Shown piece after piece: positions 21,259 to 47,883 of a DNA stretch of 64,000 nucleotides. Within the stretch, counting starts at the first letter, position 1. Every line of letters begins with the position of its first letter. Location of the stretch: assembly GCF_024199925.1 (NCBI RefSeq), contig NZ_JANADR010000001.1, forward strand, positions 2,232,001 to 2,296,000, in the 5' to 3' direction. A model generated the notes under the pieces. That model ran no database searches and was not told where the DNA came from. It saw only the letters and a program-made list of their open reading frames with translations. Both the position numbers and the translations under genes were made by a program. This stretch comes from Bradyrhizobium sp. CCGUVB1N3. GTDB lineage: Bacteria > Pseudomonadota > Alphaproteobacteria > Rhizobiales > Xanthobacteraceae.

Positions 21259-21355
21259 AGGCGACCGGCAGAAAGATCGAACAATCATACCGGCCGCGGT
21301 CCAGCGGGTTATCCCACAAAACCCTGAAATCCCTCGGCGATTGTACCCAAAGGCC

Positions 21356-22079: not shown

Positions 22080-22898
22080 TCACGATGTGCCTACGTGGAC
22101 CCTCGCGACTGTTGTGGCCTTCCTGCTACGTTTGTTTCCGACGACATCGCGCGGCAACACCGCCAGCAATGTGGTGCCGGAATGTCGCGCCGCCGAGTCG
22201 GATTGGATGTGAAGCGTGCCTCCGATCTGCTGCAATCTGGCCCGCATGGCCGGAATCCCAACGCCCATCACGGCCTTCGTGCCGGACCTCGCACGGTCAA
22301 CCGGAAAGCCCCGCCCGTTGTCGCTGACCGTCAGTTGAAAATGGTTGCCGCTCGAGGCGACGGCGATTTTCACTTCCGTCGCCTTCGCATGACGAAAGAC
22401 GTTCGTGAGGGCCTCCTGGATGACCCGAAGCAGCGCATGCTGCTTGTCACGCGACAAGCGATCGATATCCGACGAAATCCTGGTCGTGACGCGCAGGGAT
22501 GTCCGCGCGGCAAACCCCCGCGAATACCGCTCGATCGTCGCTTTAAGACCGTCAACGGTGAGATTCTGCGGGTGCAGCAGATAGGCAAATGCGCGGATCT
22601 CCCGCAGCGCTTCGTCGATCGAACCATCGATCTCGTCACATAACCGCGCAGCACCGGCCGGGTCGTTCAGGCAGGTGCGCAGGCGCATCAGCCCGAGGCT
22701 CGCCGCGATCAAATGCTGACAGGTCGAATCGTGAAGATCGGACGCAATCCGCTGCTGGATGCACTCCTGGAGCGACACCAGGCTGGCGTTCGCATGACCG
22801 TCGGCCAGTTCTTCTTCCGGACCAATCGGCAGCCACTCCCTGACGCCGGACCGTTTCGACTCGCAGGTGGGGGAGCCATGTAGCTTCATGGTACGCAC
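22080..22898 (-). CDS. Soluble histidine kinase (HisKA_3/NarX-type transmitter without sensor domain)
   Basis: A 272-residue protein consisting of almost nothing but a transmitter. The dimerisation/phospho-acceptor box is QQRIASDLHDSTCQHLIAAS with His56; the ATPase domain has the N-box EALTNVFRHA (about 162-171), G1 DNGRGFP (193-199) and G2 MGVGIPAMRARLQQIGG. There is no membrane segment, PAS, GAF or heme domain: only about 45 residues precede the H-box, including a single cysteine (TCESKRS). NarX/FixL-family kinases normally carry a sensor, so the input must come from another protein or from direct binding. It heads a three-gene set with two FixJ/NarL regulators. Confidence 0.87.
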   Translation of the reverse strand: MRTMKLHGSPTCESKRSGVREWLPIGPEEELADGHANASLVSLQECIQQRIASDLHDSTCQHLIAASLGLMRLRTCLNDPAGAARLCDEIDGSIDEALREIRAFAYLLHPQNLTVDGLKATIERYSRGFAARTSLRVTTRISSDIDRLSRDKQHALLRVIQEALTNVFRHAKATEVKIAVASSGNHFQLTVSDNGRGFPVDRARSGTKAVMGVGIPAMRARLQQIGGTLHIQSDSAARHSGTTLLAVLPRDVVGNKRSRKATTVARVHVGTS

Positions 22899-24541: not shown

Positions 24542-25804
24542 CTAATAATCCACCGCGTCCCGAGTGATCGGACAGGTCATGCAATGACCGCCGCCGCGGC
24601 CGCGGCCGAGCTCCGCGCCGACGATGGTGATCACCTCGATACCCTCCTTGCGCAGCAAGGTGTCGGCGTAGGTGTTGCGATCGTAAGCGAACACGACGCC
24701 GGGAGACGCGCAGACCAGATTGGCGCCGCTGTCCCACTGCGTGCGCTCGCGCATATAGGCGCTGCCGCCGGTCTCGACGACGCGCAGCTTCTTCAGGCCC
24801 AAGGCTTCCGCAATGACCTGCACGAACGGCTTGTCGTCCTTGCGCAGCTCGATGCCGGTGGCGTTGTTTGCGGGCCGGTACGAGAACGCCCTGATGGTAT
24901 CGACGATGTCGGGATAGATCAGCACGCAATCACGGTCCGCGAAGGTGAAGACGGTATCGAGATGCATCGCCGCACGGAGTTTTGGCATCGCGGCCACGAT
25001 CACGCGCTCCGCCGCTTTCTTCTTGAACAAGGCCGCAGCAAGCTGGCTGATCGCCTGCCGCGAGGTGCGCTCGCTGAGGCCGATCAGGACGTTGCCCTTG
25101 CCGATCGGCATCACGTCGCCGCCTTCCAGCGTGGCAAGGCCATGATCCTGGGTCGGGTCACCCCACCAGACGTTGACCTTCCCCGCAAAGTCCGGATGGA
25201 ACTTGTAAATCGCCGTGGTGAGGATCGGCTCTTCATGCCGCGCCGGCCAATAGAGCGAATTGAGGGTGACGCCGCCATAGATCCAGCAGGTCGTATCCCG
25301 CGTGTACAGCGTATTGGGCAGCGGCGGCAGCAGATACTCGGTCATGCCGGCTGCCTCGCGAATGAGCCGCAGCGTCTCGCCGCCATGGGCGTCCGGAAAA
25401 TCGTAGGTGGAAACACCGCCGATCAGGGTTTCGGCCAGGTCACGCGGCTTGAGGCTCTCCAGATAGGCGCGCAGGTCGTCGACGATATCTGGCCCGACCT
25501 GGTTGGGAACGACCTGGTTGTCGAGGATCCATTTCCTGGCCTCGGGGATCGCGACGGTCTCGGCAAGCAGATTGTGCATCTCCACCACTTCGATGCCGCG
25601 ATCGCGCATCTTCTGCACGAAATCGAAATGATCGCGCTTGGCATTGTCGACCCACAACACGTCGTCAAACAGCAGCGTGTCGCAATTGGAGGGCGTAAGA
25701 CGCTGATGGGCGCGGCCCGGCGAGCAGACCATCACCTTGCGCAACTGTCCGACCTCAGAGTGCACGCCGAAAGCAGTGGAGGAGTCCGAAGCTTGCTTTG
25801 CCAT
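24542..25804 (-). CDS. arcA: Arginine deiminase
   Basis: A 420-residue arginine deiminase hydrolysing L-arginine to citrulline and ammonia in the cytosol, the first step of the ADI pathway used for ATP at low oxygen and for acid protection. Conserved blocks: [30 protein letters not shown], the EGGD of [22 protein letters not shown], and the catalytic cysteine (Cys408) in [17 protein letters not shown]. Length is typical (406-420). It follows the ArcD-type permease gene, separated by 14-bp tandem repeats. No ornithine carbamoyltransferase (arcB) or carbamate kinase (arcC) is present in the window, so citrulline must be handled by genes elsewhere. Confidence 0.95.
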
Positions 25805-25813
25805 GGGAACTGC

Positions 25814-25869
25814 CTTGCTTAGATGGTCTTGCTTAGGTGGTCTTGCTTAAGTGGTCTTGCCTAGATGGT
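25814..25869 (-). repeat. Four tandem copies of a 14-bp unit between arcD and arcA
   Basis: Four head-to-tail copies on the plus strand: CTTGCTTAGATGGT, CTTGCTTAGGTGGT, CTTGCTTAAGTGGT and CTTGCCTAGATGGT, differing by one to three bases. They begin 10 bp before the arcA start codon and run through the arcD stop codon at 25861-25863. Each unit contains a stop triplet and a GCAAG stretch, so they occupy the ribosome-binding and coupling region of arcA. Confidence 0.9.
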
Positions 25870-27294
25870 GATGTAGCCGGTCGCCAATCCGTGAATCCCG
25901 ACCACGGCGCCGATCACGGCCACGATGAAGATGATCCATTCGACCGGCTTGAAGACCTTTGCCCTCTGCTCCAGGCGAGCCCAGAAATACAAGACCGTAC
26001 CGGGCGCATAGAGAATCGCGGCCAGCAGCAGGTATTTCATCCCCGCCGCATAGATCAGAAACAGCGTGTAGACGACGGCGATTCCGGTGAAGATCAGGTC
26101 GCGCCTGCGCTGGTCCGGACGCTTCTCATAGGTCTCGCCCCGCCTGACCAGCAAGAGCCCGTAGGCGGCGACCAGGAAAAACGGAATGAGGTTCATGACG
26201 CTCGTCAGATTGAGCATGAATGCGAATGCGTCGCGCGACCAATAGGTGCTGATCACGAAGAGCTGGACGACCACGTTCGTCAACCACAGCGCGGCCGCCG
26301 GCACCTTGTTCGCGTTCTCCGTGCCGAACACCGCCGGCATGTCTCTCGTCCGGCCGGCGGCGGAGAGCACTTCGGCGCAGATCAGCGACCACGCGAGATA
26401 GGCGCCCAACACCGAAATCAGAAGTCCAATGCTGACGAAGACGGCGCCCCAGTGCCCGACCACCGCCTCCAGCACCGTCGCCATCGAGGGCTGCCGCATG
26501 TCCGCGATCTCGGCGCGCGGGAGCACGGCATAGGGCAGCATGGTGACGAACACCATCAGGCTCGTCACGATCACGAAGCCGAGGATCGTCGCAGCTCCGA
26601 CATGGGCACGCTCGCTGGCATAGCGCGAATAGACGCTGGCGCCCTCGATGCCGAGAAAGACGAACACCGTGACCAGCATGGTCGCCCGGATCTGCTCGAA
26701 CAGGCTCTTGTCCGGCGTGCCCTCGCCGCCCCAGAAATTGGCGCGGAACATGTCCGCCTTGAAGGCGAAGATCAGGATCGCGATGAAGACCAGGATCGGC
26801 ACGATCTTGGCGATGGTGACGATGGTGTTGATCGCGGTCGCCTGCTGCACGCCGCGCAAGATCATGAAGTGGAACAGCCAGATGCCGATGGAGGCGACGA
26901 TGATCGCGGTGACGGTGTTGCCATCGCCGAACACGGGAAAGAACGCACCCAGCGTGGACTTGATCAGGACCCAGTAGGATACGTTGCCGATGCAGCTCCC
27001 GGACCAGTAGCCGAGCGCGGACAGGAAACCGGGATAGTCGCCAAATCCCGCTTTCGCATAGGCATAGACGCCGGCGTCGAGATCGGGCTTGCGTTCGGCC
27101 AGCGACTGGAAAACACGGGCCAGTGTGTACATGCCGCCACCCGCGATGCACCAGGCAAAGATGGCTCCGAATGGACCGGTTGCGATGCCGAAGGTCCGCG
27201 GCAACGAGAAGATGCCCGAGCCGACCATCGAACCGACCACCATCGCGGTCAGCGCGAAGAGTGAAAGCTTCTGGGTCGATGACGTCGCGGTCAT
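25861..27294 (-). CDS. arcD: APC-family amino acid antiporter, ArcD-type (arginine:ornithine)
   Basis: A 477-residue APC-superfamily permease with about 12-13 membrane segments. The first helix has the family signature VVGSMVGSGIFSLPRTFG, and PDLDAGVYAYAKAGFGDYPGF, FVFLGIEGASVYSRYASER and WLTNVVVQLFVI are typical of the basic amino acid/polyamine antiporter branch (ArcD/LysP/AdiC). Located immediately upstream of arginine deiminase, it is best read as the arginine/ornithine exchanger. A paralogue of nearly the same length lies at 38175. The final residues (ATGYITI) are read through the first of the 14-bp repeat units. A copy of the island's shared 20-bp motif lies 70-90 bp upstream of its start. 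Confidence 0.88.
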   Translation of the reverse strand: MTATSSTQKLSLFALTAMVVGSMVGSGIFSLPRTFGIATGPFGAIFAWCIAGGGMYTLARVFQSLAERKPDLDAGVYAYAKAGFGDYPGFLSALGYWSGSCIGNVSYWVLIKSTLGAFFPVFGDGNTVTAIIVASIGIWLFHFMILRGVQQATAINTIVTIAKIVPILVFIAILIFAFKADMFRANFWGGEGTPDKSLFEQIRATMLVTVFVFLGIEGASVYSRYASERAHVGAATILGFVIVTSLMVFVTMLPYAVLPRAEIADMRQPSMATVLEAVVGHWGAVFVSIGLLISVLGAYLAWSLICAEVLSAAGRTRDMPAVFGTENANKVPAAALWLTNVVVQLFVISTYWSRDAFAFMLNLTSVMNLIPFFLVAAYGLLLVRRGETYEKRPDQRRRDLIFTGIAVVYTLFLIYAAGMKYLLLAAILYAPGTVLYFWARLEQRAKVFKPVEWIIFIVAVIGAVVGIHGLATGYITI

Positions 27295-27363
27295 GGAGGC
27301 CTCGCGCAGCCTGCAGTGTCTTCCTTCACCTTCGGGTTGCGACTATGCGCCGTCAATGTCACA

Positions 27364-27405
27364 GGGAACATCGGGTGATTACCTAATCGCGGATCAGGAT
27401 TCCCC
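27364..27405 (-). promoter_or_regulatory. Shared island motif, site A (upstream of arcD)
   Basis: On the minus strand AGGTAATCACCCGATGTTCC, 17 of 20 identical to site B at 31769, reading toward arcD. A second block GGATCAGGATTCCCC (plus strand 27391-27405) is almost identical to one at 36104-36119. The spacer 27295-27437 contains no gene; this is its only notable content. Confidence 0.6.
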
Positions 27406-27437
27406 TCGCTGGACACCGGCTTCAGGCGATCGCAATC

Positions 27438-30400
27438 CTAGCTTCGTCGCTGTTGACCGAACCAGGTCACGTACAATGTCGGCAGGAAAACGAGTGTCAG
27501 AACGGTCGCAACCAGAAGCCCGCCCATGATGGCAACGGCCATCGGTCCCCAGAATACGGTCGGCGCAATGGGGATCATGCCGAGAACGGTCGATACGGCC
27601 GTCAGCATGATCGGCCGAAATCGCGAGCTGCTGGCATCCACGGCCGCCTCCCAGGGACCCTTGCCTTGCGAACGCTCCGCGTCGATCTGGCTGATGAGGA
27701 TCACGGCGTTCTTGCTGATCATGCCGAGCAGAGCGAGCACGCCGAGAATTGTGACAAAGCCCATCGGCCTGCCCGAGAGCAGCAAGGCGGCTACCACGCC
27801 GATCATCCCGAGCGGCGCTACGCTCAAGACCATCAGCAATCGCGGGAAGCTCTGCAACTGAACCATGAGAACCGTGAGCATGACGAACAGCATCATGGGT
27901 ACGACCGCGATGACGGACGCCTGCGACTTCTGACTCTCTTCCACAGTCCCGCCGACGACCACATCGTATCCAGGGAGAAGAGTGGTCCTCAGCTTCTCCA
28001 TGGCGGGCGACAGTGAGTCCACGACCGCGCCCGGGAGTACGCCGCCGGTGATGTCGGCACGGACCGTCAGGGTCGGAACGCGATTGCGCCGCCAGATCAG
28101 TGGATATTCCTGCTGGTATTCGAATGTCGCAAACTGGTTGAGTGGCACCGTCTTCCCGCTCGGGAGCGGCACCTGGAGCGTACGCAGGGTCGACAGCGAG
28201 ACCCGCTCTTCATCGAGTGCTCGTGCCACGACATCGACCAGATAGATATCGTCCCGGACCTGGGTCACGGTTGCACCGGATATGACGGTGTTCAACACGC
28301 TGGCGATCGCCTGCGAGCTCAATCCAAGCAAGCGCGCCTCATCCTGATCGACGCGGATGCGAACCTGGCGGTCGGGCTCCATCCAGTCGAAATTGACACT
28401 TTTCGCGTTGGGGTTGGAGGCGATGGTCTGCCCGACCTTCAGCGCGATCTCCCGTACCTTCTCCACGTCGGGACCGTTGACCCGATATTGCAGCGGCCAG
28501 CCAACCGGCGGACCAAGCTCCAGAGGAGACACGGCCGAAACCGCGCCTGGAAACTCTTCCGCCAGGAAGCGCTCCAGTTTCGCGTGCAGGCGCTCGCGCG
28601 CCGCAACATCCTTTGCCACCACCACGGCCTGGGTGAAGAAATTGTTCGGCAGCTCGACGTTGAGCGGCAGATAGAAGCGGATCGCGCCGCGTCCCACATT
28701 GGTGCTCCAATGATGGACGTCAGGATCTCCAGCCAAGGCCGCATCGAGGCGTTTCGCCGCCGTTTCGCTCGCGTAGATCGACGCATTCTGCGTCAGGCTG
28801 AGATCCACCAGCAATTCTGGCCGATCGGACGACGGAAAGAATTGCTGCGGGATCAATGGCAGCGCCAGAATGGACGCAACGAACAGCGCAAGCGATATCG
28901 CGATCGTCAGCCATTTGGCGCGCATGGCGACCGAGAGAAAGCTCCGGTAGAAGCCGTATATCCTGCCGGGCGCCGCCGCACTCCTCTGCTTCGGTGGAAC
29001 GAGGATGACGACGCCGATCAACGGCGTGAAGATGACCGCCACGAACCACGACACCAGGAGCGCGATCGCAACCACGGCAAACAGCGAGAACGTGTACTCG
29101 CCGGCCGAGCTCGCGGCAAAGCCGACCGGTATGAAGCCCGCGATCGTCACGAGCGTGCCCGCGAGCATGGCAAAGGCGTAGCTGCGATACGCGAACGTCG
29201 CCGCCTCCATCTTGCTGTCGCCTTTCGCGAGCCGGTTGAGTGTGGCGTCCGTGGTCGTCATCGCATCGTCGACCAGCAACGCGAGCGCGATGATGAGAGC
29301 GCCAAGCGATATCCGCTGCATATCAATGCTGATCAGCTTCATGATCGGAAAGACGATCGCGAGCGTCAACGGGATGGCAAGCGCGATGATGAGGCCTGGA
29401 CGAACGCCGAGGCTGATGAAGCTCACGGCGAGGATGATGGCGATTGCCTGCAGGAGCGACGTCATGAACTCGCCGATCGCCCCGTCCACCACGACCGCCT
29501 GATCGGCCACCAGGCTCGGCTCGATTCCGATCGGAAGGTTTGCCGTGATCTCGGCCATCGCCTTCTTAATGTTCCTGCCGAGCGCAAGAATGTCGCCGCC
29601 GTCACGCATGGCGATCGCGAGCCCGATTGCCGGCTGACCATTGACTCGAAACATCGGTTGCGGAGGATCGACGTTGCCGCGCCGCACCCGCGCAATGTCG
29701 CTCAGGCGGATCGTGCGGCCGCCGGCCACGAAATTGACGTTCGCGATATCCTGTTCCGACGAGAAGCCGCCCGTCACCCGGACCGAGATGCTCTCCTTGC
29801 CCGTCTGAATCGTGCCTGCGGGCCGCACGATGTTCTGCGCCTGCAGTGCGGCGAGCAGTGCCGCACGATCGATACCCAGGGTGGCGAGTTCCTGCTTGGA
29901 GAATTCGACGAGGATCACCTCGTCCTGCACACCGAGCAGCTCGATCTTCGACACGTCGGGGACCTGCAGCAATCGGGAGCGGATGTCCTCGACACGGTCG
30001 CGCAACTCGCGCTGCGTGAAGCCGTCGCTGGTAAAACCGTAGATGATCCCGAAAGTATCGCCGAAATCGTCGTTGAAGCCCGGACCGATCACGCCGGCCG
30101 GCAGGGTGTGGCGCATGTCGCCGACGCTCTTTCGCACCTCGTACCAGGTATCGGAGACTTCCCTCGCGCTCGCGCTTCCCTTCAGGTTGACGAAGATCGT
30201 GGTGAGACCTGCCCGGGTGAAGCTGCGCAGGAAATCCAGATGCGGCGTTTCCTGCAACTGGCGTTCGAGCCGCTCCGTGACCTGTTTCATGGTCTCCTCG
30301 GCCGAGGCTCCCGGCCAGGCGGCCTGGACGACCATGGTCTTGATGATGAAGGACGGATCTTCGTTCCGGCCCAGCCGGAAATACGCCAGGCACCCGGCAA

Positions 30401-30476
30401 TCACCGCGACTATCATGATATAGACGACCAGCGAGCGGTGCTTGAGCGCCCATTCAGAGAGGTTGAAACCGGTCAT
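27438..30476 (-). CDS. RND efflux permease (HAE-type, TriC-like)
   Basis: A 1012-residue resistance-nodulation-division inner-membrane pump exporting hydrophobic compounds by proton exchange. N terminus LSEWALKHRSLVVYIMIVAV starts the first helix; the central membrane domain contains LGALIIALALLVDDAMTTTDA, with the paired aspartates essential for proton relay. The large periplasmic loops and about 12 membrane segments are as expected, and length matches TriC/AcrB. Start ATG 30476 overlaps the adaptor stop by 4 bp. No outer-membrane factor gene is adjacent, so it must borrow a TolC-type channel. Substrates unknown. Confidence 0.9.
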   Translation of the reverse strand: MTGFNLSEWALKHRSLVVYIMIVAVIAGCLAYFRLGRNEDPSFIIKTMVVQAAWPGASAEETMKQVTERLERQLQETPHLDFLRSFTRAGLTTIFVNLKGSASAREVSDTWYEVRKSVGDMRHTLPAGVIGPGFNDDFGDTFGIIYGFTSDGFTQRELRDRVEDIRSRLLQVPDVSKIELLGVQDEVILVEFSKQELATLGIDRAALLAALQAQNIVRPAGTIQTGKESISVRVTGGFSSEQDIANVNFVAGGRTIRLSDIARVRRGNVDPPQPMFRVNGQPAIGLAIAMRDGGDILALGRNIKKAMAEITANLPIGIEPSLVADQAVVVDGAIGEFMTSLLQAIAIILAVSFISLGVRPGLIIALAIPLTLAIVFPIMKLISIDMQRISLGALIIALALLVDDAMTTTDATLNRLAKGDSKMEAATFAYRSYAFAMLAGTLVTIAGFIPVGFAASSAGEYTFSLFAVVAIALLVSWFVAVIFTPLIGVVILVPPKQRSAAAPGRIYGFYRSFLSVAMRAKWLTIAISLALFVASILALPLIPQQFFPSSDRPELLVDLSLTQNASIYASETAAKRLDAALAGDPDVHHWSTNVGRGAIRFYLPLNVELPNNFFTQAVVVAKDVAARERLHAKLERFLAEEFPGAVSAVSPLELGPPVGWPLQYRVNGPDVEKVREIALKVGQTIASNPNAKSVNFDWMEPDRQVRIRVDQDEARLLGLSSQAIASVLNTVISGATVTQVRDDIYLVDVVARALDEERVSLSTLRTLQVPLPSGKTVPLNQFATFEYQQEYPLIWRRNRVPTLTVRADITGGVLPGAVVDSLSPAMEKLRTTLLPGYDVVVGGTVEESQKSQASVIAVVPMMLFVMLTVLMVQLQSFPRLLMVLSVAPLGMIGVVAALLLSGRPMGFVTILGVLALLGMISKNAVILISQIDAERSQGKGPWEAAVDASSSRFRPIMLTAVSTVLGMIPIAPTVFWGPMAVAIMGGLLVATVLTLVFLPTLYVTWFGQQRRS

Positions 30477-31576
30477 GGCTCCGACCCGAGCACGCGTACC
30501 TTTTGGCCCGGGTGCAGCGCCTGAACGCCCGCGGTGACGATGATGTCGCCGGCGGCCAGGCCCTGCGAGATGATCACCTGCGCCTGGTCGTAGCGCAGGA
30601 CTTCGACGTTGCGCGCCGAAACCACGTTGGTCGCGGGATCGACGATCCACACAGCGGGCTGCTGGTTCAGCCGGGTCAGCGCCGATGCCGGTATGTCGAT
30701 CACCGGTCCCGAGCTGGTTTCGACGCGTCCGTTCACGGTTGCGCCAAGCTGCATCGCCGCGGGAGGATCGGTCAAGCCGACTTTGACCTCGAACGTCCGG
30801 GTGACGGGATCGGCTTGCGCGGCAATCTGGCGAATGCGTCCCCGCGCCGTGACCCTCGGATCGTCGGCCAAGCTCACAATCACCTCCAGGCCGGCCGGTG
30901 CCGACCTGACCAGTTGAGCGGGAACGTCGAAAACCGTGTCACGGCCATCCTGCCGCGCGATCCTCGCTATCATTTGCCCGGCCTGAACAACCTCGCCGGC
31001 CGACGGTCCTGTCGCGGTGATCTTGCCCGGCGCGTCGGCGCGAAGCTCGGTGAAACTGACGAGGTCGTTCGCGGAGTTCAGTTGGGCTTCGGCCGCATCG
31101 ACCTGCGCCTGGGCAGTCTGTTGGGCCTGCGTCGCCGCCTCGAAGTTCGCCCGCGTGGTCCAGCCCTGCGCCAGCAAGGTCTCTTGGCGCTCATAGTGGT
31201 TGCGCGCCTGCGTCAACTGGCCCTGGGCCGCAGCAAGACCAGCCTTTGCCTGACGCAGCGCGTTCAGCTCATTCTGAGGCTCCAGTCGAGCCAGCAATTG
31301 TCCCGCCTCGACCCGATCACCGATTTTGGTGTCGTTCGCGAGCAGGCGCCCCGAGATGCGGAATGCGACGCTCACTTCGTCCTCGGCCTCGATGCGCCCC
31401 GTGAAGGTCACTAGCGAACGGGCCTCGCGCTTTTCGACCGTCTCGGTGCGAACCGGGCGCGGCTGCGGCACATTTTTCGTTTCGTCTTCCCTTCCGCAGC
31501 CCGCCAGCAGCAGCGACGATGCTGCCGCAACCGTCAACAGGAAGACCTGACGAGGCGTCACTCGGCTGCCGCACAT
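30473..31576 (-). CDS. RND efflux periplasmic adaptor, lipoprotein
   Basis: A 367-residue membrane fusion protein with a lipoprotein signal (ASSLLLAGCGRED, lipidated Cys at about 27). Domains: beta-barrel/lipoyl halves around VSVAFRISGRLLANDTKIGDRVEAGQLLARL and DAPGKITATGPSAGEVVQAGQMIARI flanking an alpha-helical hairpin (RQAKAGLAAAQGQLTQARNHYERQ...). It links the RND pump encoded immediately downstream to an outer-membrane channel. Divergent from the mrp-like operon across a 325-bp spacer. Confidence 0.9.
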   Translation of the reverse strand: MCGSRVTPRQVFLLTVAAASSLLLAGCGREDETKNVPQPRPVRTETVEKREARSLVTFTGRIEAEDEVSVAFRISGRLLANDTKIGDRVEAGQLLARLEPQNELNALRQAKAGLAAAQGQLTQARNHYERQETLLAQGWTTRANFEAATQAQQTAQAQVDAAEAQLNSANDLVSFTELRADAPGKITATGPSAGEVVQAGQMIARIARQDGRDTVFDVPAQLVRSAPAGLEVIVSLADDPRVTARGRIRQIAAQADPVTRTFEVKVGLTDPPAAMQLGATVNGRVETSSGPVIDIPASALTRLNQQPAVWIVDPATNVVSARNVEVLRYDQAQVIISQGLAAGDIIVTAGVQALHPGQKVRVLGSEP

Positions 31577-31768
31577 GAAGCTGGGCCCTTCGCGTTCCGG
31601 AATCGAGTGGTTGCCGGGGCGATCAGCCGTTCCGAGGGCTACAGGTTCCCGGTGTCGGCATTTTTGCTGAAAGGCCCGGCTGTCAATATCGGTAATTCTA
31701 CTCGGAGTGGCCGGATGGAATCGTGGTTAGCCAGGGTTCGGACCCTAGGAGATTCCCGGGACGCGATC

Positions 31769-31789
31769 AGGAAATCACCCAATATTCCC
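31769..31789 (+). promoter_or_regulatory. Shared island motif, site B (between RND pump and cation antiporter operons)
   Basis: AGGAAATCACCCAATATTCC(C) on the plus strand, the best copy of the motif and the reference for the others, 113 bp upstream of the first antiporter gene. The 325-bp divergent spacer 31577-31901 otherwise shows no convincing gene. Confidence 0.6.
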
Positions 31790-31901
31790 CGGTTCCACCG
31801 ACAGCGCATGATGCAATCGTCCGTCGTTGCAGCGTGCATGGCCGGTTCAAGACAGGGGCCGAGCCCGGTGACGTGATGCGCGGGCGATCGAGGAAGCCGA
31901 C

Positions 31902-32423
31902 ATGACGGGATCCTCAGGCGATCAAGATGCACGCTCGGGCATCACGAATGGTGGCGTGTGGTCGAGTGCGATCTCGCGGGCCGCATTGTTCCTCGGTCTC
32001 TGGCTCGTGCTGGCCGGTGCCAGGCCTGCCGATCTTCCCGCCGCGGCAGCCGCCGTGGCGGCCGCAACCTGGACGAGCCTGCACCTGCTGAAGCCGAGCC
32101 CATCGCGGCGTTCGCTCAATGCGATTGCCCGACTGGCGCTGCTCTTCCTGTACCACTCCGTCGTCGCCGGATTGGACGTTGCACGACGCGCGCTCGATCC
32201 CCGGCTGCCGCTCCGCCCGGGATTCGTGGCTTACCCAACCAGTCTTTCGCCCGGCATGCGACGTAACGTGTTCACGACGCTCACCAGCCTGCTGCCGGGA
32301 ACGGTGCCATCCGGGCAGAGGAACGGAGATATCCTCTATCATTGCCTCGACGTCGAACAGCCCGTGCTTGCCGACCTTGCCGCAGAGGAGGCGGCGCTTG
32401 TTCGAGCTCTCTACAATGACTGA
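31902..32423 (+). CDS. mrpE: Na+/H+ antiporter subunit MrpE/MbhA-like
   Basis: 173 residues, MrpE/MnhE family. Hydrophobic N-terminal half (SRAALFLGLWLVLAG...) followed by RLALLFLYHSVVAGLDVARRALDP and GFVAYPTSLSPGMRRNVFTTLTSLLPGT, the family core. GAGGA lies seven bases before the ATG. First gene of a six-gene operon of cation antiporter subunits; required for assembly of the complex in known Mrp systems. Its stop overlaps the next start by 8 bp. Confidence 0.9.
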   Translation: MTGSSGDQDARSGITNGGVWSSAISRAALFLGLWLVLAGARPADLPAAAAAVAAATWTSLHLLKPSPSRRSLNAIARLALLFLYHSVVAGLDVARRALDPRLPLRPGFVAYPTSLSPGMRRNVFTTLTSLLPGTVPSGQRNGDILYHCLDVEQPVLADLAAEEAALVRALYND

Positions 32424-32697
32424 TTTTCTAACAGTGGCAGTCGGCTTCATCCTGACGATGCTGGCGCTCGGGCTGGTGTCGATCCTGCGCGGTTCGAGCG
32501 ACGCCGATCGCATGATGTCGGCGCAGTTGATCGGGACCGGAGGGATCGCTGCGCTGCTGCTGCTTGGCACGGTCACTGGCGTGCCGGCTGCCGTCGACGT
32601 GGCGCTGATCCTGGCATTGCTAGCCACCTTCGCATCCATCGCGTTCGTCAAGAAGGGGCTTGCGCGCCTCGAAGCCGATTCAACGGACAGCACATGA
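32416..32697 (+). CDS. mrpF: Antiporter subunit MrpF/MbhB-like
   Basis: 93 residues with three membrane segments (TVAVGFILTMLALGLVSILRG, GGIAALLLLGTVTG, VDVALILALLATFASIAFVKKG) and the conserved SSDADRMMSAQLIGT between the first two, diagnostic of MrpF/MnhF. Start overlaps mrpE by 8 bp and the stop overlaps mrpG by 4 bp, indicating tight translational coupling. Confidence 0.9.
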   Translation: MTDFLTVAVGFILTMLALGLVSILRGSSDADRMMSAQLIGTGGIAALLLLGTVTGVPAAVDVALILALLATFASIAFVKKGLARLEADSTDST

Positions 32698-32987
32698 GCC
32701 TCGCAGGCGACATCGTGACAATCGTGAGCGTATCGGCGGGCGCCTTCTTCTTTCTGGCCGGCACCGTCGGCCTGCTTCGCTTTCCCGACACCTTGACCCG
32801 TCTGCATGCGCTCACCAAGGCGGACAATCTCGGCCTGGGCTTCGTCGTGCTCGGATTGCTCCCGCAGGCAGCAAGCCTGCGTGACGGGTTGAAATTGATC
32901 AGCATCTGGTTGCTGGCGCTGCTGGCAGGCGCAACCGTCTCCCAATTGATCGCGCGTAGCGCGCGCCAAAGCGGATCGGCAAGATGA
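32694..32987 (+). CDS. mrpG: Antiporter subunit MrpG/MbhC-like
   Basis: 97 residues with three membrane segments, MrpG/MnhG family: FFLAGTVGLLRFPDTLTRLHALTKADNLGLGFV is the conserved block (G-x-LR-x-PD-x-x-T-R-L-H-A). Overlaps both neighbours by 4 bp (ATGA). Structural subunit of the membrane cation/proton antiporter. Confidence 0.9.
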   Translation: MSLAGDIVTIVSVSAGAFFFLAGTVGLLRFPDTLTRLHALTKADNLGLGFVVLGLLPQAASLRDGLKLISIWLLALLAGATVSQLIARSARQSGSAR

Positions 32988-33928
32988 GCATCGCGACAGT
33001 CTTCGAGATCGTGCTCGCCGCCGTGGTGCTAGGCCTCGCCGTCTGGACGATTGCCGTACGCGAGACCTATTCGGCAACGGTCGGCTTTGTCGCCTACGGA
33101 CTATTGGTTGCGCTGGTCTGGGTGCGTCTGGACGCCGTTGACGTCGCCCTGACGGAGGCCGCAATTAGCGGAGGCCTGGGTGGAATCGTGCTGTTGGGTG
33201 CCGCAGCCCGGCTACGGGACACCGAGGCGACGACCACGGAAACACCGAGCCGGATGGTGCGTCTCGGCGGGGCTGTACTCTCCGCGGCAGTCGCTGCCGC
33301 ACTGGCGATCTTGATCCTGCTCTTGCCTGATCCCGCACCAACGCTCGCGCCGGCAGCCGCCGCGAATGCCTCGGCGACAAGCCTCGCCAACCCCGTAACC
33401 AACGTGCTGATGGCGTTCCGCGGGATGGACACCATGCTCGAGAAGGTCGTGCTCCTGCTCGCCATCGTCGGTGTCTGGTCGCTTGCATCGGATCAGGCCT
33501 GGGGTGGCCGTCCGGGACCCCGCCACGAAGCCGATCCGAATGGCGTTCTCGCCTTTCTCGCGCGGCTGTTGCCGCCCGCCGGTATCGTCATCGGCATCTA
33601 CATCCTGTGGACCGGAGCCGATCATCCGGGCGGCGCGTTTCAGGGCGGCGCGGTTCTGGCATCGATGTGGCTCCTGGTCATCATGGCGGGATTGGCGGAC
33701 ACGCCGCCTGCGAGCAGCCGACGGTTGCGGCTTGTCCTCGTGGCCGGGCCCGGCCTGTTCCTCCTCATCGGTCTTGGCGGGCTCTGCTTCGGCTCGGCGT
33801 TTCTTGCCTATCCGATCGCCTTCGCCAAGCCGCTGATTCTGAGCATCGAGATCGCGATGCTGCTGACGATTGCGGTCACGCTCGCCCTGCTGCTCGCCGG
33901 CGCACCGGAACGGAGAGTGCAGCGATGA
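32984..33928 (+). CDS. Fused antiporter subunit MbhD (DUF4040)-MbhE-MrpB
   Basis: A 314-residue membrane protein joining three normally separate modules. Residues 1-80 match DUF4040/MbhD (RLDAVDVALTEAAISGGLGGI), which in Mrp systems is part of the C terminus of MrpA. Residues 90-170 match MbhE (LANPVTNVLMAFRGMDTMLEKVVLLLAIVGVW). Residues 187-310 are MrpB/MbhF, with IYILWTGADHPGGAFQGGAV. It overlaps mrpG and mrpC by 4 bp each. No large MrpA (NuoL-like) gene is present before it, so the operon resembles the MbhA-H module of membrane-bound hydrogenases rather than a classical seven-gene mrp operon. The fused arrangement is seen directly; function as part of a Na+/H+ antiporter is inferred. Confidence 0.85.
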   Translation: MSIATVFEIVLAAVVLGLAVWTIAVRETYSATVGFVAYGLLVALVWVRLDAVDVALTEAAISGGLGGIVLLGAAARLRDTEATTTETPSRMVRLGGAVLSAAVAAALAILILLLPDPAPTLAPAAAANASATSLANPVTNVLMAFRGMDTMLEKVVLLLAIVGVWSLASDQAWGGRPGPRHEADPNGVLAFLARLLPPAGIVIGIYILWTGADHPGGAFQGGAVLASMWLLVIMAGLADTPPASSRRLRLVLVAGPGLFLLIGLGGLCFGSAFLAYPIAFAKPLILSIEIAMLLTIAVTLALLLAGAPERRVQR

Positions 33929-34269
33929 GCGCCGTGACGGTATTCGGATTGAGCGCGGCTACCGCGGTCGGACTAGGGCTCTACGGCCTGATCACGAATA
34001 CGCAGCCGCTGCGCAAGATCATCGCGTTCAACCTGCTCGGCAGCGGCGTATTCCTCCTGTTCGGCATCATCGGACGCCGGGGCGCTGCAGCGGGCTTTGG
34101 CAACGATCCGGTGCCTCAGGCCCTGGTGATTACCGGAATCGTCGTCGCTTTCTCCGCGACAGCCCTCGCGATCGCCCTGTTGTTGCGGCTGTACCAGACC
34201 GCTGGCTCAACGACGCTGCAAAGCGGCGCGCCGCGCGCGGGCTCGCGCGCCGATCCCGCCGGTGGCTGA
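33925..34269 (+). CDS. mrpC: Antiporter subunit MrpC/MbhG (NuoK-like)
   Basis: 114 residues with three membrane segments, MrpC/MnhC family related to NuoK of complex I. Characteristic stretches are GLGLYGLITNTQPLRKIIAFNLLGSGVFLL and the DPVPQALVITGIVVAFSATALAIALLLRLY block. Starts 4 bp inside the fused subunit and its stop shares one base with the MrpD start (TGATG). Confidence 0.9.
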   Translation: MSAVTVFGLSAATAVGLGLYGLITNTQPLRKIIAFNLLGSGVFLLFGIIGRRGAAAGFGNDPVPQALVITGIVVAFSATALAIALLLRLYQTAGSTTLQSGAPRAGSRADPAGG

Positions 34270-36035
34270 TGCTGCCCCCTGTCCCCGCACTGGCGACGAC
34301 CGCGGGCGGCTTCCTGCTCGTGCTGTCGATCGTCCTGCCCGTCGCGGGCGTCCTGCTGGCCTTCGCTCTCGGCGACCGCTACGTCCGGCTGGTTGCCTTC
34401 GCGGTCTTGCCGATCGGGTTGGCGATCGCCGCGGCTATCCTGCTGGCGCTGCCGCAGAGCGATGGCCACCTCGTCTATCTGCTCGGCGCCTGGCCGCCAC
34501 CGCTTGGCGTAGCGCTGCGTGCGGACGGACTGTCAGCTGTGATGATTGCAGCGACGGCGGTCGTGATTTCTGCGGTCGCCATCTATGCCGCGTCTGATTT
34601 TCGGCCTGCAGCTGCGGCGCGGGCACCGGCCGCATTCTGGATTCTGCTGCTGGCAATATGGGGGGCGCTGAACACGATCTTCGTGGGGGGAGACCTCTTC
34701 ACACTTTATGTCGCCCTGGAACTGTTGACATTCGCCGCAGTGCCCTTGGTCTCGCTCGACGGCCGTTCGGAGACACTCCAGGCGGCGTTGCGATATCTGC
34801 TCTTCGCGCTGCTTGGGTCGGTGCTTTATCTGGCGGGCACGGCCCTGCTCTATGGTCTTTATGGCACACTCGACGTCGTGCTGCTGTCACGTCGCGCCAA
34901 CGCGCAGCCGGGCACGCTCATCGCCGCTGCATTGATGACGACCGGTCTTCTTGCCAAGACTGCGCTCGTTCCCTTGCATCTGTGGCTGCCGTCCGCCCAC
35001 GCGGGCGCTCCGGCAACCGCCAGCGCGATCCTGTCGGGCCTCGTCGTGAAAGGGTCTTTCTTCATCATCGCGCGACTTTGGTTTCAGTTGATGCCGGCAC
35101 TGCCCGGCTTTGCGGCTACGCAGCTACTCGGAGCACTGGGAGCAGCGGCAATCGTGCTCGGAAGCTTTGTCGCTCTACGGCAGGAGCGGCTGAAACTCCT
35201 GATCGCCTATTCGACCCTGGCCCAGATCGGCTATCTCTTCCTGATGTTCCCGCTGGCACTGGATGCGTCGGACAGGCTGGAGGCCGGCGATGCCCTGGCA
35301 GGAGGAATGCTACAGACCATCACCCACGCCATGGCAAAGGCGGCGATGTTCATGGCCAGCGGATCGATTTACGCAGCACTTGGTCATGACCGCGTCGCAG
35401 GGTTAGGTGGTGTTGCGCGAGCACTTCCCCTCAGCACCCTGGCTTTCGCGTTCGGCGGAATTGCGCTGATGGGCGTACAGCCGAGCGGCGCTTCCGTTGC
35501 CAAAGATCTGCTGTTGCAAGCCGCGGCTGAAAAGGGACAATGGTGGTGGGCAATTGTGCTCCAGGCCGGCGGGATCTTCACGGCCGCCTACGTTGTGCTT
35601 GTCCTGGCGCATGCGTTCGCACCTTCGCCGAACCTCATCGCTCTTGCGAGCCCGGTGCCACGAATTCGGGACTTGGCGCCGCTTGTGCTGGCTTTCGGCT
35701 CGCTCCTGCTCGGCCTCGTGCCCTTCGGAAGTTACCTTCCGGCTGCGTATGACACGGCGCCAAGCGGATTGAACTTTGCGCCGCTGTCGAAAGCTATTGT
35801 CCCCGTTTTCGGAGGCACCGTACTGGCATTCCTCGCCCGCCCGGGGGCTCATTCGCCCGCGTCTCCCACAGCCCGGCTCCTCATGCGCCCGGTTTGTTCG
35901 CTCCGGGAAGGCTGCATCGCGCTCGGCGACCTCATCGAACAGGGCAACGATCTTCTTTGCCGATGGCCGACGGCAAGTATTTCCCTTCTTTCACTCGCTG
36001 TGCTCTTCAGTGCTTTGATGCTTGCAACCGTGTAA
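34269..36035 (+). CDS. mrpD: Antiporter subunit MrpD/MbhH (NuoL/M/N-like)
   Basis: 588 residues, about 14-16 membrane segments, proton-conducting antiporter-like subunit. The conserved ion-path residues are visible: Glu in LFTLYVALELLTFAAVPLVSL, Lys in GLLAKTALVPLHLWLPSAHAGAP and the following ASAILSGLVVKGSFFIIARLW, and ITHAMAKAAMFMASGSIY. Length exceeds typical MrpD (about 490-500) because of a C-terminal ~90-residue extension ending in an extra membrane helix (ISLLSLAVLFSALMLATV), which recalls the long tail of some MbhH/NuoL relatives. It is the only NuoL/M/N-type subunit in the operon. Confidence 0.9.
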   Translation: MLPPVPALATTAGGFLLVLSIVLPVAGVLLAFALGDRYVRLVAFAVLPIGLAIAAAILLALPQSDGHLVYLLGAWPPPLGVALRADGLSAVMIAATAVVISAVAIYAASDFRPAAAARAPAAFWILLLAIWGALNTIFVGGDLFTLYVALELLTFAAVPLVSLDGRSETLQAALRYLLFALLGSVLYLAGTALLYGLYGTLDVVLLSRRANAQPGTLIAAALMTTGLLAKTALVPLHLWLPSAHAGAPATASAILSGLVVKGSFFIIARLWFQLMPALPGFAATQLLGALGAAAIVLGSFVALRQERLKLLIAYSTLAQIGYLFLMFPLALDASDRLEAGDALAGGMLQTITHAMAKAAMFMASGSIYAALGHDRVAGLGGVARALPLSTLAFAFGGIALMGVQPSGASVAKDLLLQAAAEKGQWWWAIVLQAGGIFTAAYVVLVLAHAFAPSPNLIALASPVPRIRDLAPLVLAFGSLLLGLVPFGSYLPAAYDTAPSGLNFAPLSKAIVPVFGGTVLAFLARPGAHSPASPTARLLMRPVCSLREGCIALGDLIEQGNDLLCRWPTASISLLSLAVLFSALMLATV

Positions 36036-36073
36036 AGCAACGGCAGACCGAAGTTCGGATCGCTCGGTCGGCC

Positions 36074-36119
36074 AGGAACTTACCCAATTTGCCACCTAGT
36101 CGAGGATCAGGATTTCCCC
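36074..36119 (+). promoter_or_regulatory. Shared island motif, site C (upstream of DUF1269 gene)
   Basis: AGGAACTTACCCAATTTGCC at 36074-36093, 16 of 20 identical to site B, followed by GGATCAGGATTTCCCC at 36104-36119, nearly the same block as at site A. It lies about 200 bp upstream of the DUF1269 start. The preceding bases contain GACCGA-N12-TCGGTC (36047-36070), a weak terminator-like hairpin after the antiporter operon. The rest of the 258-bp spacer shows nothing else. Confidence 0.55.
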
Positions 36120-36293
36120 ACTCGCCAGGGACCCGGCCGGTTGCCTTGCGCGAGCCTTTTCGCGCATCGGAACATTCATCCTTTGAGCCAAGGGTTTTCT
36201 CCGATGCCGCGCACAGCGCCGGCGGACTACCTTCACTCCGGAGCGCACCATCGGCAACATCCCGCCCAGCCGACAAAGCGTAAGGAGGTTTCG

Positions 36294-36797
36294 ATGTCCG
36301 ATCTCGTCGCGATCGTGTACCCGACCGAGGCAAAAGCCGAGGAAGTGCGTCAGCGGCTCCTCAAATTGCAGAAGGAATACCTCATCACAATCGGCGACGC
36401 CGTGATCGCCGTCAAAACCGATACCGGCGGCATCAAGCTCAACCAGCTCGTCAACACCACGGCCGTGGGAGCGATGACCGGAAGCTTCTGGGGGCTGTTG
36501 ATCGGCGTCTTGTTCCTGAACCCGATCCTCGGTGTCGCGGTCGGCGCGGCGTCCGGCGCCCTCGGCGGCGCACTGTCCGATTTCGGCATCGACGATGCCT
36601 TCATGAAGGAGCTGTCAGCCAACCTCCACACCGGCAATGCTGCCCTGTTCGTCCTGATCAAGCACATGACGGCGGACAAGGTGCTCAAGGAGATCAAGGA
36701 CGCCGGCGGCGTCGTGCTGAAGACGTCACTGGACGAGAGCAAGGAAAAGATGCTGCGTGACGCACTCGCCAGCGCAGCGGAGCGGCCGGCGGCTTGA
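36294..36797 (+). CDS. DUF1269 family membrane protein
   Basis: 167 residues. Begins MSDLVAIVYPTEAKAEEVRQRLLKLQKEY and contains a glycine-rich membrane hairpin (GAMTGSFWGLLIGVLFLNPILGVAVGAASGALGGALSD) flanked by soluble ferredoxin-like alpha/beta segments, the DUF1269 pattern. An ideal AAGGAGGT ribosome-binding site precedes the ATG, suggesting strong translation. Members are often stress-inducible; their biochemical role is not known. Single gene, convergent with the BI-1 protein gene 17 bp away. Confidence 0.85.
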   Translation: MSDLVAIVYPTEAKAEEVRQRLLKLQKEYLITIGDAVIAVKTDTGGIKLNQLVNTTAVGAMTGSFWGLLIGVLFLNPILGVAVGAASGALGGALSDFGIDDAFMKELSANLHTGNAALFVLIKHMTADKVLKEIKDAGGVVLKTSLDESKEKMLRDALASAAERPAA

Positions 36798-36814
36798 CGC
36801 CGCCTTCCACCGCT

Positions 36815-37525
36815 TTAGCGACGATTGCCGAAAAGGCGCAGCAGCATCATGAACAGGTTGATGAAGTTGAGATAGAGCGACAGCGCGGCGAGAACGGACT
36901 TGCGGCCTGCCGACGTCTCATCGTCCGTGCTGTCGTACATCGCCTTGATGCGCTGCGTGTCATAGGCGGTGAGGCCTGCAAAGACACCGACACCGACGAT
37001 CGAGATCAGCCAGTCGAGCCCGGTCGACCTCAGGAAGAGGTTGACCAGGCTTGCGATGATGATGCCGATCAGGCCCATGAACAGGAAGGTGCCGACCCCG
37101 GACAGGTCGCGCCTCGTCGTATATCCGTACAGGCTGAGCGCGCCGAAGGTCGCAGCCGTGATGAAGAACACGCGGGTGATCGAGGAGCTGGTGTAGATGT
37201 GGAGCAGGATCGAGAGCGAAATGCCGACGAGGGCGGCATAGACAAAAAACAGCGTCCTCGCCGTCGAGACCGACAGCGTATTGATGCGCGATCCCAGGAA
37301 GAATACCAGCGCGAGCGGCGCCAGAATGAAGACCCACATCACCGGACTTTGCAGCCAGGCGGGATCAACCAGCTGGTAGGTCAGCCACGCCGCGACCGCC
37401 GTCACGCCGACGCCCGCGGCCATGTGATTGTAGATCCGCAACATGTAGTCGCGCAGTCCGACGTCAAACGCAATCGCGCGGCCTGCCTGGCCTGAGTCCG
37501 CCAGGTTCTGATCATAGTTCGACAT
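36815..37525 (-). CDS. Bax inhibitor-1/YccA family membrane protein
   Basis: 236 residues, seven predicted membrane helices, BI-1/TMBIM family (UPF0005). The first ~30 residues are soluble; motifs include HMAAGVGVTAVAAWLTYQL, the middle LAPLALVFFLGSRI and the C-terminal GLTAYDTQRIKAMYD, where the conserved aspartates of the putative Ca2+/pH gate lie. Eukaryotic and bacterial BI-1 proteins act as pH-sensitive calcium leak channels or, in bacteria (YccA), FtsH modulators. Upstream (91-112 bp) is a copy of the island motif. Confidence 0.9.
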   Translation of the reverse strand: MSNYDQNLADSGQAGRAIAFDVGLRDYMLRIYNHMAAGVGVTAVAAWLTYQLVDPAWLQSPVMWVFILAPLALVFFLGSRINTLSVSTARTLFFVYAALVGISLSILLHIYTSSSITRVFFITAATFGALSLYGYTTRRDLSGVGTFLFMGLIGIIIASLVNLFLRSTGLDWLISIVGVGVFAGLTAYDTQRIKAMYDSTDDETSAGRKSVLAALSLYLNFINLFMMLLRLFGNRR

Positions 37526-37592
37526 CGCTCTCCTCCTCTCGCACGTCGGCGGGATGAGATCAGGCTATTCCGGTGTGCAGGTTCCAGACATC

Positions 37593-37628
37593 AGCTGATC
37601 ACCCGAGGATTCGGGGTGAATTTCCCCT
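37593..37628. promoter_or_regulatory. Shared island motif, site D (two opposed copies between BI-1 and DUF6894 genes)
   Basis: Plus-strand AGCTGATCACCCGAGGATTC (37593-37612) points to the DUF6894 gene; minus-strand AGGGGAAATTCACCCCGAAT (complement of 37609-37628) points to the BI-1 gene. Both keep the TCACCC core and overlap around CCCGA-GGAT-TCGGG. More degenerate than sites A-C. Spacer 37526-37760 holds nothing else recognised. Confidence 0.45.
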
Positions 37629-37760
37629 GGTCGGACGGCGTGGCGATCGCCTCGACCTTACCAGAGCGCAATCTGCCAGACCGCTCGTCATCCCTTTGGC
37701 GGATGAGCCTTACGGGTTTGTCACTGGCAGCCGTCCACGCTGCGGCCTAATGCAGCCAGG

Positions 37761-42140: not shown

Positions 42141-42192
42141 CGATAGCCGGCGCCTGTCGCGCGCGATAGCGGCGCCGCCGTTCAAGCTAGAT

Positions 42193-42204
42193 GGGAATAT
42201 TCCC
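42193..42204. promoter_or_regulatory. GGGAATATTCCC palindrome upstream of hdeD
   Basis: A perfect 12-bp palindrome 97 bp upstream of the HdeD-family start, in a 160-bp spacer. Its half GGGAATATT also ends site B of the island motif (minus strand), so it may be a related binding site. Confidence 0.4.
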
Positions 42205-42300
42205 GTTCCGACGCTCAGGGTTTCGTCCGATATCGGCGTTGCGGGTTCCAAGCTAGCATTCAGGCGTGTCGATCGAGCCATTGCCGATGAGGAGAATGGC

Positions 42301-42858
42301 ATGACAGCCTATGACGGCCGAACCGAGATCGAAGGTCTCGTTCCGCCCCCATTCTGGGTGTGCGCGCTGCTTGGCATCGTGCTGATCGCCGCCGGTCTCT
42401 TTGCTCTCGGCGACGTCGTGTTCGCGACCCTCATCAGCGTCAAGCTGATCGGCGTGATCGCGATCGCGGCCGGCGCGTTCGAGATCATGCACGCCTTCTG
42501 GACCAGGGGATGGGGCGGCTTCCTGTGGCAGGTTGTGCTTGGCGTGCTCTATCTGGCGCTCGGTTTCCTGCTGCTCAGCCAGCCTGTGTCGGGTGCTCTC
42601 ATCCTGACCTACTTCCTCGGCGCGATACTGTTCGCCTCGGGCGCCATTCGCTGCGTGCTGAGTTTCGCGCATTGGCGGCAGAACGGATGGATGATGCTCA
42701 TCTCCGGCGCCTTTGCAACGCTCGCAGGTCTCGTGATCCTGCTCGGATTCCCCGACATCAGCATCTGGGCCCTTGGATTCCTGCTGGGCGTCGACCTGAT
42801 CTCGCACGGCCTGGCGTGGCTGCTCTACGCGCTGCAATCCGTGCGGCGAACTGCGTGA
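42301..42858 (+). CDS. hdeD: HdeD family acid-resistance membrane protein (DUF308)
   Basis: 185 residues with six membrane helices arranged as repeated DUF308 pairs: VCALLGIVLIAAGLFALGDVVFATLIS, LIGVIAIAAGAFEIMHAFW, WQVVLGVLYLALGFLLLSQP, LTYFLGAILFASGAIRCVLSF. HdeD of E. coli contributes to acid resistance at high cell density. Start ATG 42301 has GAGGAG six bases upstream, which rules out longer in-frame starts. Followed by two small genes that may share its transcript. Confidence 0.85.
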   Translation: MTAYDGRTEIEGLVPPPFWVCALLGIVLIAAGLFALGDVVFATLISVKLIGVIAIAAGAFEIMHAFWTRGWGGFLWQVVLGVLYLALGFLLLSQPVSGALILTYFLGAILFASGAIRCVLSFAHWRQNGWMMLISGAFATLAGLVILLGFPDISIWALGFLLGVDLISHGLAWLLYALQSVRRTA

Positions 42859-42873
42859 CAAGAAGAGGAGAAG

Positions 42874-43179: not shown

Positions 43180-43222
43180 CACCGCCTTCTCGCACGTCCG
43201 TAACCCAGCGATGGAGGACACC

Positions 43223-43462: not shown

Positions 43463-43507
43463 GCGCGGCCTGAGCCACTGATCCAGGGCCTGGGCAAGGA
43501 GCGGACG

Positions 43508-47880: not shown

Positions 47881-47883
47881 ACC

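Follow-up and report, generated by a model that had tools for sequence, protein, structure and literature searches.

Which regulator, if any, ties together the stress-type genes that lie side by side in an uncharacterised island of Bradyrhizobium? The window, by which we mean the whole stretch of 64,000 nucleotides analysed, comes from Bradyrhizobium sp. CCGUVB1N3 (contig NZ_JANADR010000001.1; C1:2232001-2296000 in our coordinates, within a genome of 10,444,098 bases). An earlier, sequence-only reading of this DNA had pointed to a motif of about 20 bp in four intergenic regions (sites A to D) as the sign of a regulon. In this study we show that A, B and D represent a single 48-bp element rather than 20-bp units, and that three more copies (E, F and G) exist which that reading did not list or which lie outside its span. 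All six fall within window positions 21,303-42,239, an island of 21 kb. The element is conserved in related species, keeps its spacing to a -10 box, is restricted in this genome to the island, co-occurs with a response regulator encoded there (RR2) and has copies far from RR2 in some relatives. We hold it to be quite likely that a HisKA_3 kinase and two NarL/FixJ-family response regulators of the island, RR1 and RR2, activate their own island and that RR2 is autoregulated; both regulators are candidates for binding.

From a 20-bp motif to a 48-bp element

The 20-bp similarity was found as described: site B (31769-31788, plus strand) is matched at 17/20 positions by A (27365-27384, minus strand) and at 16/20 by C (36074-36093, plus strand), and the next best 20-mers in the window have 7 mismatches to B. 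Genome-wide, the joint consensus AGGWAMTYACCCRATNTKCC occurs without mismatch only at A, B and C. At 3 mismatches it gave 11 more matches, compared with 7 for a reversed-pattern control (up to 3 mismatches), and beyond A to C nothing in this pattern is clearly above chance. The alignment of A and B reaches further, with 77% identity across 43 nt, indicating a unit longer than 20 bp. At site D the similarity is real and significant genome-wide (Table), in the form of one 48-bp element on the minus strand instead of the two opposed copies that had been proposed.

Profile R1 was built from 12 sites (A1) and profile R2 from 27 of 44 sites (A2; without the A, B and D classes). Both searches were prefiltered: the best 150 of 4394 and the best 150 of 2396 candidates were scored in this genome, and 15-23 per genome in relatives, so that weak sites may be missed and numbers of sites per genome are lower bounds. 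R1 matched A, B and D, with the next match at E 0.75, and R2 matched E, F and G, with the next at E 0.56. These six are the only significant profile matches in the 10.44-Mb genome among the candidates scored; the window's sites were among those used to build the profiles, and their E-values mean that nothing else in the genome is alike rather than providing an independent test. Two weaker matches were treated as chance, one in the window upstream of the kinase gene (22985, 13.3 bits) and one of R2 inside the kinase gene (E 0.56). No site was found at a DUF1269 paralogue elsewhere in the genome (L081).

The likeness of A and B over 43 nt could also come from a dispersed repeat, or from an RNA element copied between intergenic regions, and it was a dispersed repeat that the sequence-only reading had named as fatal to its regulon. 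We regard this origin as extremely improbable. The six significant copies in 10.44 Mb all belong to a single island, every one of them stands in register with a -10 box, and their distances from start codons are those typical of the family. The profile searches gave no significant copies outside promoters in this genome.

Each copy holds two conserved blocks whose centres are ~22 bp (two helical turns) apart, a left block like GGnA-aTTC and a right block like TCAGGGTTTTGTCGGAT or TAGGTAATCACCCGAT. Information amounts to 0.97-1.36 bits per column in the element; the 30 bp before it have 0.09-0.20, and the positions 41-110 bp after it 0.10-0.28. The -10 box was part of neither the profiles nor the matrices described below. 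Of the 152 non-redundant sites, 105 have TAnnnT at an offset of 13-15 after the 48 bp, and of the 217 distinct sites 152 do; any other single offset between 0 and 33 accounts for at most one of the 152. With [TC]AnnnT the counts at offset 13-15 are 147/152 and 212/217, compared with 2-10 of 217 at five control offset triplets, and 6/6 window sites have this box. A -35 hexamer is not claimed: at least 4/6 positions matched TTGACA in 27 sites, compared with 20 at control spacings. Judged from its sequence, an element with a -10 box and no recognisable -35 is a putative activator-type promoter. If transcription is assumed to start 7 nt after the -10 box, the blocks would centre near -43 (right) and -65 (left).

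The left block often reads GGAAC in the alignment, as might the promoter of an alternative sigma factor such as EcfG (GGAAC-N16-CGTT) or RpoN. This explanation is largely refuted and seems very unlikely to us, given that GGAAC-N15-18-CGTT is present in 1/217 sites and a looser form in 5, that an RpoN-like pattern is present in 0/217, and that the conserved downstream box is TAnnnT, ~55 bp from the left block.

Conservation and co-occurrence with RR2

A DUF1269 search in 60 genomes gave a match in 17, and in several of the 20-kb stretches around matches lay an island with the same genes, the order of which varied. In matrix searches the element was kept upstream of orthologues at family-typical distances, as A before arcD, B before MnhE and D before BI-1. 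A weaker-looking family in the same frame belongs to this kind of element too; its members precede DUF1269 (E), DUF308 (F) and RR2 (G). Where the Mnh genes are absent, as in genome G005, a B-type site faces DUF1269. Altogether 80 fetched loci yielded 217 distinct copies (different 48-mers of at least 18 bits with full flanks): 58 before RR2, 35 before arcD, 35 before BI-1 (median 73 bp from core to BI-1 start), 33 before DUF1269, 26 before DUF308, 15 before MnhE and 15 before other or unnamed genes, the last of which may include false matches. One stretch (L227 of G064; 771 and 12660) carries two DUF308 genes, each with its own copy.

The starting matrix of eight sites alone would not convince, with reversed-control maxima of up to 15.2 bits. 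With the final matrices, reversed sequences reached at most 4.9 bits, against a threshold of 13, in a scan of 41 sequences (857 kb) and gave 0 matches in 79 loci. Eight weak matches, three of them in MFPb, were dropped before the 44-site list and the later matrices, as were near-duplicates from the list; L164:9385 and L167:4665, found by both matrices, were left out of both later ones. The three matches in MFPb (15-18 bits) lie inside its coding sequence and were judged false positives. Equal frequency in coding and intergenic DNA had been named beforehand as evidence against a regulon; intergenic positions account for 125/127 matches in the 41 sequences and for 126/129 in the 79 loci. Gene calls came from a home-made caller, and the 2 + 3 'coding' matches lie where BI-1 and DUF1269 sites usually do and fit miscalled starts. 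The 79-locus scan is not independent, many named loci belonging to genomes that also supplied matrix sites.

Among the named loci, 51 have a close RR2 (L232-L282), and in 49 of these a site precedes it. The other 28 of the 79 are loci of distant RR2 relatives, in which the motif found no significant support, the best of them (L287, p 0.03; L283, p 0.023) not being significant after 28 tests. In L283, from Novosphingobium sp. PhB165, a GGGGTTTTCCCGAT-like string upstream of 9989 precedes a 53% RR2 relative; its best core score is on the other strand, and it is only a lead.

RR2, called at E <= 1e-60, is present in 82 of the 265 genomes of our genus set. R1 (the arcD/Mnh/BI-1 form, at E <= 1e-3) has matches in 69 of the 265; all 69 have RR2, and 183 genomes have neither (Fisher 8e-51). 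R2 (at E <= 3e-3) has matches in 79 genomes, 72 of them with RR2, and either model in 82, 75 of them with RR2. At E <= 1e-4 the R2 figure becomes 71/72, the exception being G180. A family set of 391 genomes contains 35 with R2 matches at E <= 1e-4; four of these come from two other genera, and all four have RR2 at 70-89% identity. No match at 13 bits was found in 8 DUF1269-family loci (26-81% identity, some of them paralogues) from G018, G022, G001, G010 and G012, which are not among the 82 genomes with RR2 and whose membership in the 265 is assumed from their genus.

Some copies lie far from RR2, and we therefore argue for action in trans. The distance is 2.0 Mb in the single-contig assembly of G024 and 0.4 Mb on one contig in G373; in G072 and G104 the copies are on contigs other than that of RR2, where the nearest contig end is ~200 kb and ~60 kb away. 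These copies precede DUF308 in G024 and G373 and a ferric-reductase-like gene in G072 and G104; further copies in G072 stand before an OpgC gene, a DUF992-like gene and the Mnh operon. The ferric-reductase-like genes and the OpgC gene (L153, L215) might be regulon members outside the island in other species. G163 was not counted as a distant case, since its sites and RR2 are on different but short contigs and may be neighbours. G407 is ambiguous: its site is on another contig than RR2, but has a paralogous pair of kinase and regulator ~12 kb away.

Site C was rejected as a genuine DUF1269 operator, the working element of that gene being E. In G121, G270 and G286 arcD and DUF1269 are divergent neighbours with A-type and E-type sites in between, and the C-to-E stretch of the window aligns with this arrangement, in agreement with a multiple alignment. 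Site C matches site A of G121 and of G270 over 25 bp (88% and 84%) and that of G286 over 15 bp. It has no -10 box at the expected place, and its right half is not conserved. A shared orientation toward the gene had been claimed for A, B and C; it fails for C, whose left half matches A in the opposite orientation. Site C is probably what remains of an A-type site after arcD and DUF1269 were separated by other genes. The second block that had been noticed in A and C is real, with GGATCAGGATTYCCC found exactly only at these two places in 10.44 Mb, and they would share it because of this descent. Allowing up to 2 mismatches, GGATCAGGATTYCCC has 67 matches genome-wide, 14 of which read GGATCAGGATTTTGC. 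These 14 were discarded as regulatory sites: the six viewed in context (L009, L012 and L013 among the places) are one insertion-sequence end (CAGGCTGTTGAAGAAGTCTCTGGCG...).

Candidate regulators and the proposed circuit

Table. Sites, regulators and putative targets of the island, in window coordinates (E-values are genome-wide)
Feature	Position	Strand	Assignment	Predicted -10 box	Basis
Site G	21303..21350	-	upstream of RR2, between RR1 and RR2	TATGAT, 21284-21289	R2 profile, E 2.0e-6; position weight matrix (PWM)
Site A	27362..27409	-	upstream of arcD-like antiporter and arginine deiminase genes	CATAGT, 27342-27347	R1 profile, E 1.1e-6
Site B	31744..31791	+	upstream of Mnh/Mrp-type antiporter operon	CATGAT, 31807-31812	R1 profile, E 4.0e-6
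Site E	36166..36213	+	98 bp (core to start) before DUF1269	TACCTT, 36228-36233	R2 profile, E 1.1e-7
Site D	37582..37629	-	upstream of BI-1	TAGCCT, 37562-37567	R1 profile, E 1.1e-4
Site F	42192..42239	+	79 bp (core to start) before DUF308, with efflux genes behind	TAGCAT, 42254-42259	R2 profile, E 5.0e-7
Site C	36074..36119	-	probable relic of arcD-type site		left half kept; right half and -10 not conserved
RR2, NarL/FixJ-family response regulator	20574..21209	-	candidate activator		Pfam Response_reg + GerE; start from the script's caller
RR1, second NarL/FixJ-family regulator	21356..21985	-	alternative or partner activator		Pfam; recognition helix very like that of RR2
HisKA_3 kinase	22080..22898	-			PF07730 + PF02518
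Arginine deiminase	24542..25804	-	putative target, behind arcD		PF02274; NCBIfam arcA above cut-off
Basic amino acid/polyamine antiporter, arcD-like	25861..27294	-	putative target of site A		TIGR00905 above cut-off
Multisubunit cation/proton antiporter operon, MnhE-F-G-B-C-D-like	31902..36035	+	putative target of site B		Proton_antipo_M in last gene; conserved gene order
DUF1269 protein	36294..36797	+	putative target of site E		PF06897
BI-1 (Bax inhibitor 1 family)	36815..37525	-	putative target of site D		PF01027
DUF308 protein, gene without Pfam match, MFP, RND pump, MFP, ABC transporter	42301..51734	+	putative operon of site F		gene order and spacing

Both RR1 and RR2 have PF00072 and PF00196 (receiver and LuxR-type helix-turn-helix, HTH). 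Their receivers and HTHs look intact on inspection, and their recognition helices are similar, not identical. The best matches of RR2 among solved structures are VraR, NarL and DevR. Its open reading frame (ORF) could also begin further upstream, at a TTG (21284), which however falls in the predicted -10 box. The HisKA_3 kinase adjoins the two regulators, and by this position it would be their cognate kinase.

The local regulon under the adjacent two-component system, which the sequence-only reading had proposed, is the reading best supported by our data, and it also takes in RR2 itself and the DUF308 genes. We infer its regulator from the co-occurrence and from the site before RR2. RR2 is favoured over RR1 as the candidate activator, because its own promoter carries the element, both in the 49/51 loci and in lone cassettes, and because conservation is slightly higher in its HTH (mean 0.90) than in that of RR1 (0.86); the difference is small. 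The lone cassettes are second kinase-RR1-RR2 sets without island genes in the fetched 20 kb (L230 of G121, L231 of G103 and L232 of Bradyrhizobium iriomotense). Their regulators are 95-98% and their kinases 84-88% identical to those of the window, and site G is kept before RR2.

It might also be possible that an unrelated regulator binds the element and merely travels with the island, as could be read from G180, which keeps a DUF308 site in a genome without RR2. We think this clearly unlikely, since the element stands before RR2 in the 49/51 loci and in the lone cassettes, and since genomes with copies at a distance from the island have RR2 at another place. In addition, among 27 ORFs of the region in Pfam (some antisense; the first five Mnh genes and small ORFs lay outside the scan) a DNA-binding domain was found only in RR1 and RR2.

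Under control by the adjacent system, the motif would be the upstream half of an activator-dependent promoter, with RR2 (or RR1, or both) as the likely activator, phosphorylated by the adjacent HisKA_3 kinase. The activator may be bound at both blocks beside RNA polymerase, in a class II position. RR2 or RR1 would bind as tandem dimers and would activate rather than repress. With RR2 under its own element, the switch would reinforce itself. In this genome the circuit would be private to the units of RR2, arcD-arginine deiminase, the Mrp-type antiporter, DUF1269, BI-1 and DUF308-efflux.

Several points weigh against this explanation. G180 has a strong DUF308 site (L212, E 9.5e-8) with no RR2 orthologue found, its best response regulator relative being 34% identical; a recent loss of RR2 or another regulator are possibilities here. 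Six other genomes without RR2 have marginal R2 matches (E 6.6e-4 to 2.4e-3), where ~0.8 such genomes would be expected at nominal E, with E-values that may be off fivefold. Conversely, seven genomes with RR2 have no R1 or R2 match; among three of them that were checked, G136 lacks the site (L237), and G023 and G184 have one by PWM. Because RR2 usually has RR1 and the kinase as linked neighbours, co-occurrence does not point to RR2 alone. The genomes are related and the genes linked, which means that the Fisher value does not count independent events and speaks for association, not binding. The sensing part of the kinase seems to be lost or decayed in this strain: a PAS match is present in 4 of 5 tested relatives (in 3 of these above the Pfam cut-off), the window kinase has none, and its homology continues upstream of its start (22080-23000 region) into a frame with stops. 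Finally, the likeness between the two blocks appears weak. Direct-repeat scores between them are negative, with the best shift at 22 bp for the A/B class and the pooled sites and at 20, 21, 24 and 29 in other classes. The right block of the A/B class has a dyad (GGTRATYACC) above the shuffled-column null (3.7 vs 2.3); in the D, E, F and G classes it does not reach the null threshold, and dyad symmetry across all classes is unsupported.

The presence of two regulators raises the question of whether one of them reads the GGTRATYACCC sites (A, B and perhaps D) and the other the GGGTTTYGTC sites (E, F and G). The subclasses are distinct, yet they have a common frame and -10 spacing, and the recognition helices of RR1 and RR2 are similar but not identical. 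BI-1 sites, however, fall between the two, and the matrix seeded with E, F and G sites also caught most A, B and D sites. A genome with one regulator and one subclass was not found, though this was not searched systematically. We consider such a division of labour doubtful. The broadest form of our proposal, which we put forward tentatively as a possibility, is a portable stress island with a complete private circuit: a kinase (with PAS in relatives), two paralogous regulators, a two-block promoter module before most units, RR2 under its own module, the island switching on together and two operator subclasses read by the two paralogues.

The gene content suggests acid/ion or low-oxygen stress as the signal, because it combines arginine deiminase, a basic amino acid antiporter, a cation/proton antiporter, BI-1 and a DUF308 protein. 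The match of the last to the HdeD acid-resistance model is weak (35.6 bits, cut-off 189). The arcD-like antiporter scores 547.6 against TIGR03810 (arginine-ornithine antiporter), below the cut-off of 591. A passage on Rhizobium in PMC4070871 assigns the arginine deiminase pathway to low-oxygen arginine catabolism. For the Mnh subunits other than the last gene, the names are what we take them to be rather than results of a family search. A second basic amino acid antiporter lies within the island at 38175-39614 (TIGR00905 above cut-off); no element was found upstream of it.

An uncharacterised stress island of Bradyrhizobium and its relatives is hereby turned into a testable circuit of six promoters, with predicted starts and few candidate regulators. 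Such a regulon would offer a clean example of confinement, in this species, to a single island within 10 Mb of genome; in other species its operators are present with the same genes (DUF308, Mnh) at different locations. The little-known DUF1269 and DUF308 proteins might also become more accessible through their co-regulation with BI-1, arginine deiminase and a cation/proton antiporter.

Comparison with known systems

That the motif is neither FixK nor EcfG, as had been suggested from the sequence alone, is borne out by the 217 sites, where the consensus boxes of both are nearly absent. The general stress promoter of Alphaproteobacteria read by EcfG is given as GGAAC-N16-CGTT in the relevant part of PMC3892343. 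The island shares with it stress-type genes and a left block that often has GGAAC; GGAAC-N16/17-CGTT is found in 1/217 sites, and a CGTT -10 is nearly absent. The FixK/FnrN box TTGANC-N2-GATCAA, with up to 2 mismatches, occurs around 3 of the 217 sites.

The FixLJ system is closer in design. For FixJ of S. meliloti, a section of PMC4999443 describes two adjacent binding regions upstream of the fixK promoter (-69..-44 and -57..-31), the site TAAGTAATTTCCCTTA and the SELEX sequence GTAGTTTCCC. The likeness lies in a NarL/FixJ-family regulator, in two adjacent regions upstream of a promoter and in A-type sites (AGGTAATCACCC) that resemble FixJ sites, whereas operator and targets of the island differ. 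The sensor of that system, FixL, binds haem in its PAS domain. By the curated model RR2 is not FixJ (NF006900, 83.6 bits vs a cut-off of 255). In NCBIfam, RR2 matches MctR best (182 bits) and the kinase MctS (130.9 bits), a likeness to MctSR/NarXL, but both fall far below the curated cut-offs (300 and 700), and the island has two regulators beside one kinase.

The DosR/DevR box is TTSGGGACTWWAGTCCCSAA, a 20-bp palindrome. Like the DosR regulon, the island combines a NarL-type regulator with a GGG/CCC-flanked core and stress genes, and DevR is among the best structure matches of RR2. The GGG-CCC spacing, in contrast, is 6 bp in the A/B class and not 8, CCC is missing in E to G, and the circuit is private to the island. 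No description of motif or island was found in the open-access literature by title and abstract start (RegPrecise was not searched), and both appear undescribed. With a shared element, the putative operator, in front of several transcription units and also before the regulator gene, the circuit appears to belong, as a class, to the NarL/FixJ-type regulons.

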